Assembly (NCBI RefSeq): GCF_000149955.1
Contig: NC_030994.1
Coordinates: forward strand, 1,975,071-2,039,070
Direction of reading: 5' to 3'
DNA: 64,000 bases
From: Fusarium oxysporum f. sp. lycopersici 4287
Lineage: Eukaryota > Ascomycota > Sordariomycetes > Hypocreales > Nectriaceae
A program made the position numbers and the translations under genes. A model generated the notes under the pieces. The model was not told the DNA's origin. It was given only the letters and a program-made list of their open reading frames with translations, and searched no databases. Positions 9,087 through 54,445 of this stretch are shown here, one piece after another; position 1 is the first letter of the stretch; the number at the start of each line of letters is the position of its first letter.

Positions 9087-12000
9087 CTACCTGTATGACC
9101 GCCCATCTCGGTAGTTACCTCGAGAACCATAGCCTCCTGAGCCTCGTCCTCTATCATAGGATTGTCCTCCGTACCCCTGATAACCAGAAGCACCGTGAGG
9201 TGGCTGTGGTGGGCCTCTGTATTGGTTGTTATAGCCTGGAGCACCGCCGTGGCGGTTGTCGTACTGCTGGTGATTGTAATAATGAGCTGGTGGGGGCGGT
9301 GGTGGTACCCCGATCCCGAATCCAGGGGCTCCTGGTGGTGGAGGCACATGAGAAGCGGCCGGCGGAGGGTAATGGCCATTGGATCTACCATATCCTCCTT
9401 GGTGCCTGTCATGCTGAGGCCCGCGCGACATACCAGGGCCATTGTAGCCACCTCGATTGTGGCCTCCTCGTCCGAAGCCGCCATTCCTGCCTCCGCGGTT
9501 GGCCTTATTCCGGATATCTTGAATGTCGCTTTGTGTGAGAGCAGGCTTCGGAAGCTGAACCCCACGAAGCAGCATCGACTTGTGTGTTTGTGAAACGGAA
9601 GGCATATCGTAGTAGACGCTAGAAATATTAGCCAAACGGAGACTGTGCGTTATAGGCACGGTGTCATACCTGACTGATCGATCATATTCGAGATTGGGCA
9701 TACCATTCCTCTCAAGAGGGTACTTCAATTCTTCATGGGGAACATATCCCTCTTTCTTCTCGACCTTGCCCGACAAGCCGTCACTCTTTTTCGGGTTCAG
9801 CTTGAATTTGGAGTCTCCTTGTTTCTTGGAGTAGAACTTGGTTAGAACATCATCGTACAGGCTCTCATGGGCTTCTGAGAAGATCAAAACATCTCTGCCC
9901 ATTTCGTTGCGTGCTGAATCTGCTGCACTGAGTTCTGGGTATTTTGCTTGAACGGCGGCTAGTAGGCGAGGCATCTCAATGAAAGGAAGCAAGGCAACAC
10001 CTTGCCAGGCCATCTTCTTGCCATTGAGATCAATCTCAAAGTCCTCCGGATAGAAGTCAATGATGTTGCTTTCTGGGTTGAGCATGAGGTCGTGGAAAAC
10101 CTCCGGAAGGGCATGGCGTGATGCAGCCGGCAAGACACTCATCAACTGCTCGAATGGCTTAGATATTCTGCCCTTCTCGAAGGAAATCTTCATCTTGTCG
10201 ATGTCTTGGAAGTCAGCTGCGAATGGGGCATAATGATACGGGTAATACCACTCCAAGAGGGGCACCCCTGGAAGTAGTACAGCAAGACCCAAGCAAGACC
10301 CTCCACATACGCTCGTGCGACCTCGTGACGAAACTCGATGTCTTGGGGATCTTTGTGGAATTTCTTCTCGTAGTATCGATCGGCATAGCCGTCCTCCCAG
10401 AGGCGCACATCATCGACGGGGCCCTCCTCTGCCGGGGCTGCTGGAGTTGGAGCATTGGATGTATCAGGAGTCGAACCATCCCCTTCTTCGAGAGTTGATG
10501 CCTTTCGTTTTCCTAGAGCGGAAGCAGAATCTTGATCCGCTTCCGCTGGTTTCGCGGTTGATAGTGACTTCTGCGACTGGAGCTGGGCTTTGAGGACACT
10601 CGCGGCGCTCTTGTTGGCAACATTCGCATCTGGCGCGCTACTGCGGTTCACAATCATGTCGTGCGTCAGTCTCTGCTCGTTCGGCCCAGAAAAGGAGGTA
10701 ATGGGTTGGAGTAGCACGTTGGCAGGGTTTTCGAGGCCGTTGATCTTCTTCGGATGAGCAGGTCCACCTTGACGTCCGCCTCGGCCATTGTTCTCGTTCT
10801 GCAGCTTTCTCCGCTTGAAGTTGGCCTCACGCCGGTCTTCCTGTTCTTTTCGCCGCTTGAAGATACCGTCTTCTTGCTTGGCCAAGCCGCTCAGAATCAC
10901 CTGCGCCCTTTCAAGATCGATATGCCCGTCTTTGGTGACGTAGCCACCCATAACAGGCAGATTGTCTTTCCAGATTTTGGTTAGAGTATCAATTCCATGC
11001 TCTCGGATTTCCAGGGCTGGAAGATGCGGTAAGAAATCGTTACCCACGAAACAGCACATAAAGATCCAATCATCAACCGCACGTTCCACGTCGAAGCGGA
11101 AGGGCAAATTAGGAACGCTGAGCTCAACTTCGAGGTATTCTCGCAACACAGCGACATGAAGCCAGATGAAAGGCTTGAGAGCGACACCTTTGTCCTTCTC
11201 GTCGTGTTCGCCGTCTTTCTTCTTTTCCTCGCCACGGCAATTCTGGGCATCATGTCCTTTCTGGCCACAGAGCTTACACAAACGAGCCTTCTGTTCCTGG
11301 AAGAAGACGTCTTCACGAAGGACACGGAAATGAGGCTCATGGGTTGCAAGCCCCAGCATGATAAGATCGGCATCAAGGCCATAGATCACATGCCGAGTGT
11401 TGGGGTCATGGTCTGGTGATGCCCGCTGGGACCGAACAAAATTCATGATCTTGTGCTCTCCCTCTCCGGGAACAGTAGCATCAGAAATGATGATTTTAAG
11501 TTTCGCCCAACCAGGATCCGTGTTGAGTTTGTACTGACACCAATATCTCAGGCTGAGGGCGAGAATGTCCATGAAAGGCGTTCCAGGGGTGATCGAGTTT
11601 GAGTCGAAAGCCTTTTTAAGGACAGTCTCTTCACTTTCGGCAGTCAAATTACCACCATTCTGTTGTTTTAGAAGTTTGATAAGTTCTTGCTTGTCCTTCT
11701 CCTTCTCCTGGGCTTCTTGTGCGGAACGAAATCGTCTTGACCGTTGCTGGTTCATCTTGGCTCGAGGCGCAACACCATCTATGGGGGTTTGTTAGCTTTG
11801 AACAAGTTAATTACATGTACAGCTCCGACCAAAGGGCCGAAACTGAGCTAGAAAAAAAATGGCTTAACATACCAACTGCAATCATGAGTATCTTTCGGGG
11901 CCGAACCATATTCACCACGCGATCGGTATATCTGAAGACTTCCATCATCATTTCCTCCTCGTCTTTGGGAGCTGGTCGATCTTCAGGATGAGAACAAGGA

Positions 12001-12761: not shown

Positions 12762-15700
12762 ATGTTCTCTATTGCCAGCGCCCCGGCGAAACAATCGGTT
12801 GGTGAGACCATCGACGTTCTAAGCGGTCGCCTCAGTTCAGCAACCTTGTTAGAAGACCGAAGAGCTGCAATTCTGGGTCTTCGTAGCTTTGCCAAAGATT
12901 ATCCAGCTTCTGTAGCTTCGGGTGCCCTACGAAGTCTAATAGGGAGTCTAAGCAAAGACGGTGAAGATGTCGACACCGTCAAAGTGGTACTCGAGACGTT
13001 GTTAATGCTCTTCAACCCTAATGAAGATAGTCCCGAAGCTTCGGAGGAGATCGCCCTATGGTTGGCTGACGAGTTCACTCAACGCCAAGAGAACATTACG
13101 TTACTGCTCGATTTCCTCGAAACAAACGATTTCTATTCCCGTCTATATTCTTTGCAATTACTAGCCGCCATACTTTCCGCACGTACAGAACGCACTGAGG
13201 AATGTATCTTTACTGCTCCCCTCGGTATACCACGGCTGGTTTCCGTCCTCGATGACCAACGCGACGCTATACGCAACGAAGCTATCATTCTCCTGACCTA
13301 CCTCACACCAACATCGATCGAAATACAGAAGCTGGTGGCTTTTGAGAATGCTTTTGAGAGATTGTTTGCCATCATCGAAGCCGACGGAGCCCTCGTAGAA
13401 GGAGGTCGCACCGTTGAGGACTGCCTGATCCTTCTGGCCAACCTCCTCCGATCAAACAGCTCAAACCAGGCACTGTTCCGGGAGTCGGGCTGCATGAACC
13501 GTTTGGCGGATTTGTTAGGTCGAGTTCTGAAACCTCAAACTGATGGGTCTGAGATCGCTTCATGGGCAGCAGCGCAACGAAACCGAAATGTTTATGCTTT
13601 CCTCGCTGTGATTCGTCTATTTGTTGTCAGGGGCTCTGCGGGTACTTCGTTGAATCAAACAGCTATATGGAAACATGGCCTTGCCTACCACATTCTACAA
13701 CTGGCCTTCAGCCATGAAGCGCAAACACAAATCAAGGCTGAGGTTCGATAATCTGATTGCTACCGGAAGACCATTTCGTTGACATCATATAGGCTCTGAT
13801 CACTTGTGGTGACGTGATTCGGCAAAACGCACCGCTTCAGGAGACATTTGCTCAGATGATGGTTTTGTCTCCTCTGGCAAAGTCTGGCACGGCCGATGGA
13901 CAGGCCAGCCAAGGCGAAAAAGTATTCGTTATCGACGGCTTATTAGACCTGACATTGTGTCTGCAGGACCTTCAAGAATTCGATGTCCGTTTTGCGGCGG
14001 CTGAGTGCTTGCAAGCTTATTTTGCACATCATCCAGCTGTCAGACTGCATTTTCTTGGCCGGGCCATTGAAGGACATCAATCTGGGGCCAACGAGTCTTC
14101 CAACGTTTTGACAGTTCTTCTGCAGCCTTCAGTTGAGTCCTCGGATCCATACAGGCAATGGTTCGCTGCTGTGATCACTTTCCATCTCTTGCATGAAAAC
14201 TCAAAAGCCAAGTCAGAAGCCATGGGCTTGACCGAAGGTGATTCGGAAGACGGGGAAGAGGTTGTGACAGCCATTCAAACTCTTTCAGCTCACGTTACGT
14301 CAGGCCTTCGTCGAGGCGACGATACTCGGGTTTTGGTCGGTTATCTTATGCTACTCTTGGGCTGGCTTTTCGAGGATCTCGATGCGGTGAACGACTTTCT
14401 CGCCGAGGGAAGCAACGTTCAAAGCCTAATTCAAAGCTGTTTCACAGCCTCCAGCCATAGGCGGGGGCGAGATCGTCCAAGGACTGTGCACAATGTTGCT
14501 TGGTGTTGCTTACGAATTCTCAACAAAAAGACTCACCAATCCCAAGAGCAACATTACTCTCTATCTTGACGGCTCGCATAGATCGAGATGTATACCTAGA
14601 CCGCCTATCAAAACTTCGCAGCCACCCTTTTATCCGTGATTTCGAAGTCTTGCCTCAAAAGCTAGATGCTTCGTCTCCAGGGCGACTCCCTGATGTCTTC
14701 TTCGACAGGGAATTTGTTGAGTTCTTCAAGGACAACTATAGCCGAATAGCACGTGCTATTGACAGAGAGCCTGGCATGGAAATCTCTGTTGTAACCAACG
14801 GTGTTCAGAAAGGTGTCTCGAGGGAACTTGTAGACTCTCTGAGGAGCCAGGTCGAGGAAAAGCAGAATGCTGTGAACGAGATCCAGGAAAAGCTAGCAGT
14901 ACTTCAGGGGCAGCTAGGCCAGGAACAGGCGGATCATCGCAGATCAAAGGAAACCGCTGCTCTAGAAATGCAACGGGTCAAGACTGTGAATGAAGGGTTA
15001 CAAAAGCATCATAGCGAAGAGCTGCGGTAAGTGCCACTATTATCAACTTGTGTTAACCCTACTAAAACGGCTACAGGAAGCTTCAGGGTCAGTTGGCGTC
15101 CAAGGAGAATGATCAGCGTAAGCAGGTTGCTCAATTACAATCTCAATATTCGATCAAGGAGAACGAGTATCAAAACCAAATTGCTCAGCTGCGTTCACAA
15201 CAAACAGCACAAGAAAGCGATCATCAGAAGCAGCTCGAACAAGTCCGGAAAGCGGCCGAGGCCGAAGCAGAAAAGATTAGACGGAGGACGGATGCTGAAG
15301 TGGCAGATCTCAAAGCGAATATCAGTCGTCTCGAGGTTGTTCTGATGAAGGTGCGTGCCTGTTATCCCAGCCATTACGGTTTGTACGAGTGCAGTCGGCT
15401 AACATTGGCTCAAACATAGTCCCAAAAGGAGTACAATGCACTACAGCTGCAACGCAAGAACGAGATAGATATGCAAAGAGAGAAATATGAGAAGGTGCTA
15501 GGGCACCTTCGTCAGGAATACGAAGATTTCAAGACCCAATCCAAGGCTAAAGCAGATGAAAAACAAGCCAAGTTCAAAGTGGAACTGCAAAGCCTCTGCG
15601 ATAGAAAAGATGCCGAGATAGACGCTTATCGAGAGCAGAGTCAGGTGGACCTGGAGCAGCAGAAATTGAAGACCAAGGAAGCAGAGGAGAAGTGCCAGAG

Positions 15701-51932: not shown

Positions 51933-54445
51933 TCATCGGATTACGTCTCCTTCTTTGTCAATGCCTTCAAGCCCCTCCAGGATATCGCTTCCTGCTAGAA
52001 TACCCGTGGCGCCCACGGTCACGCCCCGTTCTCGCGACCATACTTCATGAAACTTTATGCTCTTGTCACTCGATGCAACAATAATGCACCCTTCCTTGCC
52101 TCCTACTGGTGCAGTTGGGTCCTCAGAGGTCGGCCCTCGAGGGTATGAGATGGCATACAAGGCCCGCAGGTCGTCCTCCCAAGGAATTGCTGCAACCTGT
52201 TTGCACTCCGGCCAACTGAAAACGCTGACACGATAGGGGTGTTCTGGTGAAGCGTACCCGAATGTGGCGGCAATCTCTCTGCGCGTTGTGTTCCAGATGA
52301 GCGAGGTTACCTGGGCAGACACTGATATCGTTGCGAGAGCTGCTCCGGATGGCGTATGGAAGAAGTGTATGCACTTGTCGTTAGAGCCACCTCCTGTTGC
52401 CACCAACTCTCGCCTCCAGGGGCAGAAAGCAATGGCTTTCACAGCAGCATCGTGGTTCCAATGATGCTTCGCGATAGCAGGGCCAAGATACCGAACGGTG
52501 TCAGTTCCAGTCGGAAGTGGCTGTAGCTGTGCCCTGAACGCCCTCACAGGCATATCGTCGTCCCATCGACGCTCAACAGCCGTGTAACTCTTGTCTCAAT
52601 GCCACCATACGCGCTGCCCGCCTCAATGCGCCCTCGATGACCATTTACCCCGTGGGCTTGCTCAGTTCGCCGTCCAGAGACTTGATCAGCATCGAAAAGA
52701 CAGCAGAGATTGTCGTTTCCCCCCGAGGCGAATAGACGACCATCATATGACCATGCAAGACCGCATACTTGCTGACAGTGAATATTGCTGATCTTGGCTA
52801 CCAACGATACCGCACCGGGCCAAGTGTCCCGCGTGACTTCCCAGCCTATCGGCCATTCCACAACGTAGTAGTAGATATTGCCCATCTCATCCCCAACTAC
52901 CAAGTCCTCCGTCAGAACTTCGACCCCTAGATTCATGGGGTTCTTGGAAGGTCGCAGAGTACAAGCTGGGCGCCAGCTCACACAGGAAATAGGAAAAGTC
53001 TGGCGAACCTCGAATCGTGGTAGTGTGTCAAAGAGAGATTGGAAAAGCACACTCCCGTTCGAGTGTCCAATCCCAAGCACAGCTTTACCTCCAGGAGTTG
53101 ATGAGAAGGCAACCGACGTCAACTAAGTATCGGAGTGTGTTCCATGGATCAGCTGCACGCCCCGAAACTCAGACCAGGCATAAAGAAGGCTCCCCAAGCA
53201 GACAACAAGAGTTTGTGCCGTATATGAGTACGCCAGTGGTGAACAGTAGAAGTCATCCTTTAGATTAGGGGCATCGAGTACTCTGAAGACCGTTAGCTCA
53301 GCTCTTTTGAACACTCAGACTTACCAACCTGAATGGAGCAGCCGGTAGGAGACGCCTCTTTGCTGGCCTAAGAGGAACTGTTTATGGTCAACTATGATTT
53401 TAATAGACCAGCAGGTTCAACTTACTTGACCACTCCTCTTTGTTGACCCACTGATATCCATTCCAACTTGTGTGACTAAAGTCCGTATGAAGACCATGCT
53501 GTTTGAGGCTTTGAGGGATTTGCTGAGCCCGTGCGAACTCGAGGATCTTTCGTACCTGGTCAATGTTGAGAGCCGAAGCGATGCGGCCTTCGTGCTTCTC
53601 CTTCTCGACTGACGTGCTGACAAGACTTTCCTGGAAGAGGGTGGGAAACACACGAGCGTTGGTCCCACGTCTGACGAGATGCCCCTGTCCATCATCGGTA
53701 GCGATTGCATTAGGCGCAAGACCACCAACCGACCACATGGCTCCCATACTAACTTGACGATCTCCTCCTCGGTTCTGTGGTAGTTGGCCAAGAGCTATAC
53801 CTAGTGATGAGCTGGTTAGATGAAAACAAAGAAGAAGAAGTAAAGCAAGTTGGCTGCCAAACCTCTGTCCAGATGACTATCGTCAACTCGAAAAGGAAAA
53901 CGGGGATCAGGGTCCATCACACGACGCTTTAGAACGAATGGATCTGCTGAGGCACTCTTGTCACGCTTCAGACGCTCATCTCTCGATAAATCCTGGCTTT
54001 GCTTTGTTGTTCGATATCTCTCGGATGATGGGGAAATGGGATCACGTCTCGGGACGTATCTGTCTAGAAGCTGTATGTTTGGGTCAATGCGTTTGTCTTG
54101 GAGAGGCAAACGTCTAGAGAATTTTGAGTATAAAAAAGGAGAAATCACATCAGCCTTCCCTTTTGGATGACGCCTTTCTGGTGTTTTGGGAGGCTCGGCC
54201 GCGAGCCTTGTTTTGCTCGATGCTGGCGGTTTTTGCTCTTGGTTTTCAAGCGATTTGATTGGAATTTCATCCGGGCTTGAGCCATCGAAAGAAGGAAAAC
54301 ATCGTTTTCGGAGATTCGGGCAGAACTCAAAGACTTCACCTGCTGAACCATAGCCTGAATCCGGCGAGCTTATCGACTGACAAGACAAGTCTGTCCCGCT
54401 AGTTCTTGGAAGCAGTTGAGGACGTCGAGGCGGTTGTCGAAACAT
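51933..54445 (-). CDS. AMA1: AMA1-type meiotic APC/C activator (Cdc20/Cdh1 family) with one in-frame TAG
   Basis: WD40 co-activator of the anaphase-promoting complex. Exons on the minus strand are 54445-53863, 53800-53426, 53377-53329, 53282-52649 and 52589-51933; phases agree and sum to 766 codons. The C-box is DRYVPRR at residues 128-134, the WD40 propeller starts at APFRVLDAPNLKDDFY, and the protein ends in the APC-binding Ile-Arg tail (EGDVIR). Codon 389 (53125-53123) is TAG, in frame, between GVQLIHGTHSDT and LTSVAFSSTPGG. In Cdh1 the matching position is aromatic (DTYISSVKWS), so UGG (Trp) is expected. Excising the 36 nt ending in this TAG would keep frame but is too short for an intron and removes a needed strand. 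The long basic N-terminal region, the divergence from Cdh1 and the weak donors (GTTTGG, GTTGGT) suit the AMA1/Mfr1 branch. The last intron (52590-52648) is less certain. Confidence 0.85.
53123..53125 (-). other. In-frame UAG codon in AMA1, candidate A-to-I editing site
   Basis: The single stop in an otherwise open frame. The edited base would be the A at 53124 (minus strand), preceded by U and followed by G, the most favoured context reported for stage-specific A-to-I editing in Fusarium and Neurospora. Flanking CCGA(T) and (G)TCGG can pair and place the codon in a hairpin loop. Editing is inferred, not shown by DNA. Confidence 0.55.

Follow-up and report, generated by a model that had tools for sequence, protein, structure and literature searches.

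The Fusarium oxysporum f. sp. lycopersici 4287 DNA analyzed here (the window, 64,000 nt) carries a gene resembling AMA1 whose reading frame contains a TAG codon where a tryptophan would be expected. This raises the question of whether the gene is broken, whether the codon belongs to an unrecognized intron, or whether the stop is corrected in the mRNA.

The gene consists of four exons (Table 1). Its predicted product contains a C-box, a Fizzy WD40 domain and a C-terminal IR followed by the final TGA, and on the basis of these features it was assigned as AMA1, a putative APC/C activator of the Cdc20/Fizzy type. The score against PF24807 (E = 2.8e-54, 184.9 bits) is under the curated cut-off of 200; it was obtained with a provisional AMA1 model in which X replaces the stop and part of a loop is omitted. 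The protein also matches Slp1, Cdc20 and Cdh1, and some of its relatives bear the name AMA1. A 701-base probe covering the site has one match in the genome (61.2 Mb, 71 contigs). The initial annotation, which had reported a TAG at codon 389 together with an intact C-box and IR tail, was correct on these points, and the frame is open on either side of the TAG. Of the five exons that it proposed, introns 1-3 were retained; the fifth exon was abandoned and the last exon is that given as exon 4.

Table 1. Coordinates of the AMA1 features and of the frame changes in other genes of the window
Feature	Position	Strand	Remarks
AMA1, four exons in all	54445-51933	minus	
AMA1 exon 1	53863..54445	minus	holds the C-box; matches P0001 along its length
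AMA1 exon 2	53426..53800	minus	
AMA1 exon 3	53329..53377	minus	
AMA1 exon 4	51933..53282	minus	WD40 part, to the final stop
C-box DRYVPRRD	54041-54064		residues 128-135 of AMA1
In-frame TAG	53125-53123	minus	AMA1 codon 389, Trp column
Supposed intron ending in TAG (81 nt)	53123..53203	minus	F. oxysporum and F. verticillioides models
One-base frame slip in AMA1	52558..52567 (near 52,563)	minus	relative to homologues
Frame change in RAT1/XRN2	10250-10270	minus	one base
Frame changes in USO1/p115	14430-14570	plus	three successive frames

The initial annotation had further described 766 codons broken only by the TAG, which could not be upheld, since a one-base slip also breaks the frame. Exons 1-4 total 2357 nt, which is not a multiple of three, and the window encodes the sequence of P0004, an F. 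oxysporum model, in two frames that meet at the slip. This arrangement, and the residues that other Fusarium homologues have throughout the loop, led to the rejection of the fifth exon. We infer that the intron behind the 766 codons was a 59-nt stretch with a GTT donor. Candidate introns of 77, 122 and 128 nt, from a search limited to GTA or GTG donors (which thus excluded the 59-nt stretch), contain no CTRAY branch-like site. The slip is probably an assembly error, because RAT1 and USO1 of the same window slip in a similar way. If real, it would break the protein a second time, and as a second lesion of AMA1 in the assembly it was counted against an editing of the stop.

In the gene encoding the RAT1/XRN2 exoribonuclease, the frame changes by one base in a conserved stretch that is too tight for an intron (the alignment with PDB 7opk extends to residue 624 in one reading frame and picks up again at residue 617 in the next), and this change is likely an assembly error. 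In USO1/p115, a single Pfam domain is spread over three frames (profile positions 1-212, 214-248 and 233-313), consistent with one or two slips. RAT1 and USO1 are both essential in yeast. Twenty ORFs were scanned and eight stretches of six genes were inspected; two genes had slips, four stretches in as many genes had intron-type borders, and two stretches were uninformative.

The TAG had initially been assigned to an aromatic slot of the protein, in agreement with phmmer alignments that set the codon opposite a tyrosine of both Slp1 (4aez) and Cdc20 (4ggc). Alignment of the orthologues, a check proposed in the same annotation, identified tryptophan as the commonest residue of this column (W 80, H 13, Y 7 and gap 20 among the 120 homologues listed of 178). 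Codon 389 is accordingly a UAG that occupies a Trp column of a conserved frame. A U preceding the edited A, which is favoured according to a review (PMC11156358), is also present, but it is inherent in the TAG codon itself. All 20 gaps belong to Fusarium models that omit the codon. The remaining 8 of the 28 Fusarium homologues listed carry W and come from solani-group species, F. decemcellulare, F. zealandicum, F. nematophilum and NRRL 66182. One gap model (P0027, F. solani) is from a W-bearing group and drops the region, which leaves 19 gap models, some of them without a longer stretch around the site. On this comparison, the stop seems to be confined to part of the genus Fusarium. A stop arising by chance at a Trp codon is only mildly surprising if the codon alone is considered, as TGG to TAG accounts for 16 of the 288 single-base nonsense paths in AMA1 (5.6%) and for 16 of the 80 transition paths to nonsense (20%); the case rests on the cross-species pattern.

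Seven of the Fusarium gap models resume exactly at LTSV, directly past the TAG, and in five of them the two borders of the supposed intron are identical, so the predictor took the TAG for a splice acceptor. The main rival explanation is that a real intron of 81 nt, spliced constantly or alternatively, ends with the TAG, which would make the protein 27 residues shorter. The segment has GT...AG ends, a length divisible by three and, 26 nt from its end, a branch-like CTGAT, and the five models mentioned above agree on both borders. Against it, the splicing would remove conserved propeller residues that are encoded by the W-bearing homologues, the borders vary among the models of different species, and the donor (GTCTGC) is weak. 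The stop of FgBUD14 is both edited and spliced according to the review cited above (PMC11156358), whereas Liu et al. (PMC4817773) describe introns of this kind as annotation errors. We consider a true intron unlikely; the 81-nt intron is probably an annotation artefact.

The residues located behind the stop are identical to those of P0004 at 370 of 370 positions. For residues 1-198, 199-388 and 390-759, respectively, identity amounts to 116/178, 149/184 and 302/349 with F. graminearum P0005, 182/198, 158/164 and 354/370 with F. verticillioides, and 90/192, 111/170 and 288/370 with the W-bearing F. duplospermum. Since identity rises towards the C-terminus also in W-bearing species, only the absence of decay counts here, and by these comparisons the sequence behind the stop is free of it.

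This bears on the possibility that AMA1 is a decaying pseudogene of a clonal lineage, in which the stop and the frame slip would both be real lesions. The assembly does contain two lesions, and the lack of a sexual stage known to us would suit such a fate. However, the codon is likewise missing from models of sexual species, and RAT1 and USO1 carry slips similar to that of AMA1. Moreover, AMA1 is identical to P0004, which itself has no slip and represents a cluster of 115 sequences, at all 556 alignable positions (556/556); 5 of 453 residues differ from F. odoratissimum P0019. Together with the identity of RID given below, these values indicate a genome of the F. oxysporum complex. We regard a pseudogene as very unlikely. 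An error of the assembly at the TAG itself would have company in the several one-base slips found elsewhere in the window, but those are insertions or deletions and the TAG would be a substitution. In addition, the F. oxysporum and F. verticillioides models resume after the codon at a splice AG, which requires a codon ending in AG. A base error is thus extremely improbable, and both explanations fit worse than a true intron.

As evidence for editing, the initial annotation had also cited a CCGA/TCGG hairpin that holds the codon in its loop, but the site performs no better in this respect than control TAGs. In short folds the A of the AMA1 TAG lies within an 11-nt loop, and in the 101-nt fold it is paired. 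For comparison, 500 control TAGs were sampled from this strand; their A is predicted to lie in a hairpin loop 264 times with folds of 31 nt, 224 times with 41 nt, 152 times with 61 nt and 111 times with 101 nt. The fold z-scores at the AMA1 site are 0.15, -0.03, 0.83 and -1.09. The hairpin neither supports nor excludes editing, and its lack of any advantage over the controls was counted against the editing reading.

Components of a putative editing machinery were distinguished in the genome. A Tad2-like protein is encoded (best PDB hit yeast TAD2, E = 2.6e-26; one of the eight loci of PF00383 was compared with PDB). Inspection by eye of a Tad3-like ORF revealed H-x-V in place of H-x-E, and an E to V change in Tad3 is described in PMC11156358. 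The family of Ame1, DUF726, is represented by three loci, any one of which is a candidate Ame1.

Other genes edited in F. graminearum were also searched for. The RID DNA methyltransferase gene, edited in that species according to PMC4817773 and PMC11156358, contains an in-frame TAG at a Trp column (L031:1907-1909, contig C8). It separates two open stretches, of 203 and 449 residues, that share a frame, and the product shares 614 of 625 residues with F. oxysporum f. sp. pisi P0121. This TAG would correspond to the codon edited in FgRID. Among the 120 homologues listed of 435, the column comprises 63 W and 57 gaps, the latter belonging to all 42 Fusarium homologues listed, nine named ones from other genera (Ilyonectria, Neonectria, Dactylonectria, Thelonectria, Mariannaea, Cosmosporella and Cylindrodendrum) and six unnamed ones. 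Six of all the gap models (P0172, P0184, P0201, P0213, P0239 and P0240) have no residue in the whole stretch inspected around the column and may lack the region. Judging from this wider distribution, the RID stop is apparently older than that of AMA1. SPO22 (L032, contig C1) contains a UAG that undergoes editing in F. graminearum; here its coding pieces are interrupted by TGA and TAA, and inspection by eye showed no TAG. PUK1 was not found: the search listed 134 kinase matches and scored 122 of 300 candidates; 16 had a TAG, of which 12 were retrieved, and the published tandem stop is present in none of the 10 TAG-bearing candidates inspected in detail. The results for SPO22 and PUK1 were both counted against the editing reading. 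A MAT1-1 alpha-box gene (L033, contig C8) covers profile positions 55-193 of 194 and is stop-free.

In our opinion, the TAG of AMA1 is very probably a conserved premature stop subject to correction at the mRNA level. A-to-I editing, proposed in the initial annotation, gains support from the published editing of the AMA1 orthologue FGRRES_10728 and, by comparison of gene models, from the 19 Fusarium models that omit the codon in the way that a stop would compel. Liu et al. (2016, PMC4817773) place FGRRES_10728 in a set of 69 genes whose UAG to UGG editing lies behind mispredicted introns and, for F. verticillioides, describe the event as common to 34 of 47 orthologues. According to the same paper and the review PMC11156358, F. 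graminearum AMA1 is edited from UAG to UGG in perithecia; the review names FgAMA1 among the stop-corrected genes and describes Tad2, Tad3 and Ame1, and AMA1 is reported to require editing (PMC9499528). The stretch that the F. graminearum models skip points to editing of the same codon in that species, and the F. oxysporum codon would be edited likewise. The tRNA deaminases Tad2 and Tad3, as a pair and with the cofactor Ame1, would convert the A of the UAG to inosine in fruiting bodies; ribosomes would read the edited codon as tryptophan and produce full-length AMA1 of about 785 residues. Unedited mRNA would yield a 388-residue fragment that keeps the C-box, with nearly all of the WD40 propeller missing. 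The tying of AMA1 activity to meiosis, as put forward in the initial annotation, needs care.

A sexual stage of the F. oxysporum complex is, to our knowledge, not known. The usual setting of editing may therefore be absent, which counts against the correction of the stop. AMA1 and RID keep stops that would be passed only in edited mRNA, with intact sequence beyond them. One possibility, which we hold to be less likely than not, is that editing persists in a hidden sexual cycle or in another stage, and that such stops mark hidden sex; a plain alternative is that sex may have been lost recently, with too short a time for decay. If the first possibility is true, conserved edited stops would constitute a DNA marker of hidden sex in supposedly asexual fungi. 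Because both stops persist in a supposedly asexual complex, hidden sex can be tested on sequence data. For annotation, the stops mean that conserved residues are missing from many public Fusarium models of AMA1 and RID, as gene predictors steer around the stop.

As AMA1 editing is known in a sister species, the F. oxysporum stop is most likely a conserved known case and not a new one. It concerns the orthologue of a known case, in which both the gene and the phenomenon were already known, and provides a further instance of the documented editing switch on a spore-formation gene. What is added here is the reach and relative age of the stops, with that of AMA1 apparently limited to part of Fusarium and that of RID extending through the listed members of the genus to several other Nectriaceae. 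No publication on AMA1 editing in F. oxysporum was found among the open-licence papers listed.

The closest known system is FgAMA1 itself, the same gene with a stop masked by mispredicted introns; the homologous stretch is absent from both F. graminearum models listed. Its editing was shown by RNA from the sexual stage of F. graminearum, whereas F. oxysporum AMA1 is known here from DNA alone. FgRID, PUK1, AMD1 and FgBUD14 are different genes with a similar UAG inside the frame and correction in perithecia, according to PMC4817773 and PMC11156358. CHE1 and zao (PMC11169179, PMC12754623) also resemble AMA1 in having a UAG corrected to Trp at a conserved stop and in the resulting annotation errors. 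The data examined gave no sign of hyphal correction of this type for AMA1. The correction of CHE1 and zao differs in its setting, as it occurs in stressed hyphae, or upon virus infection of Neurospora with another deaminase.
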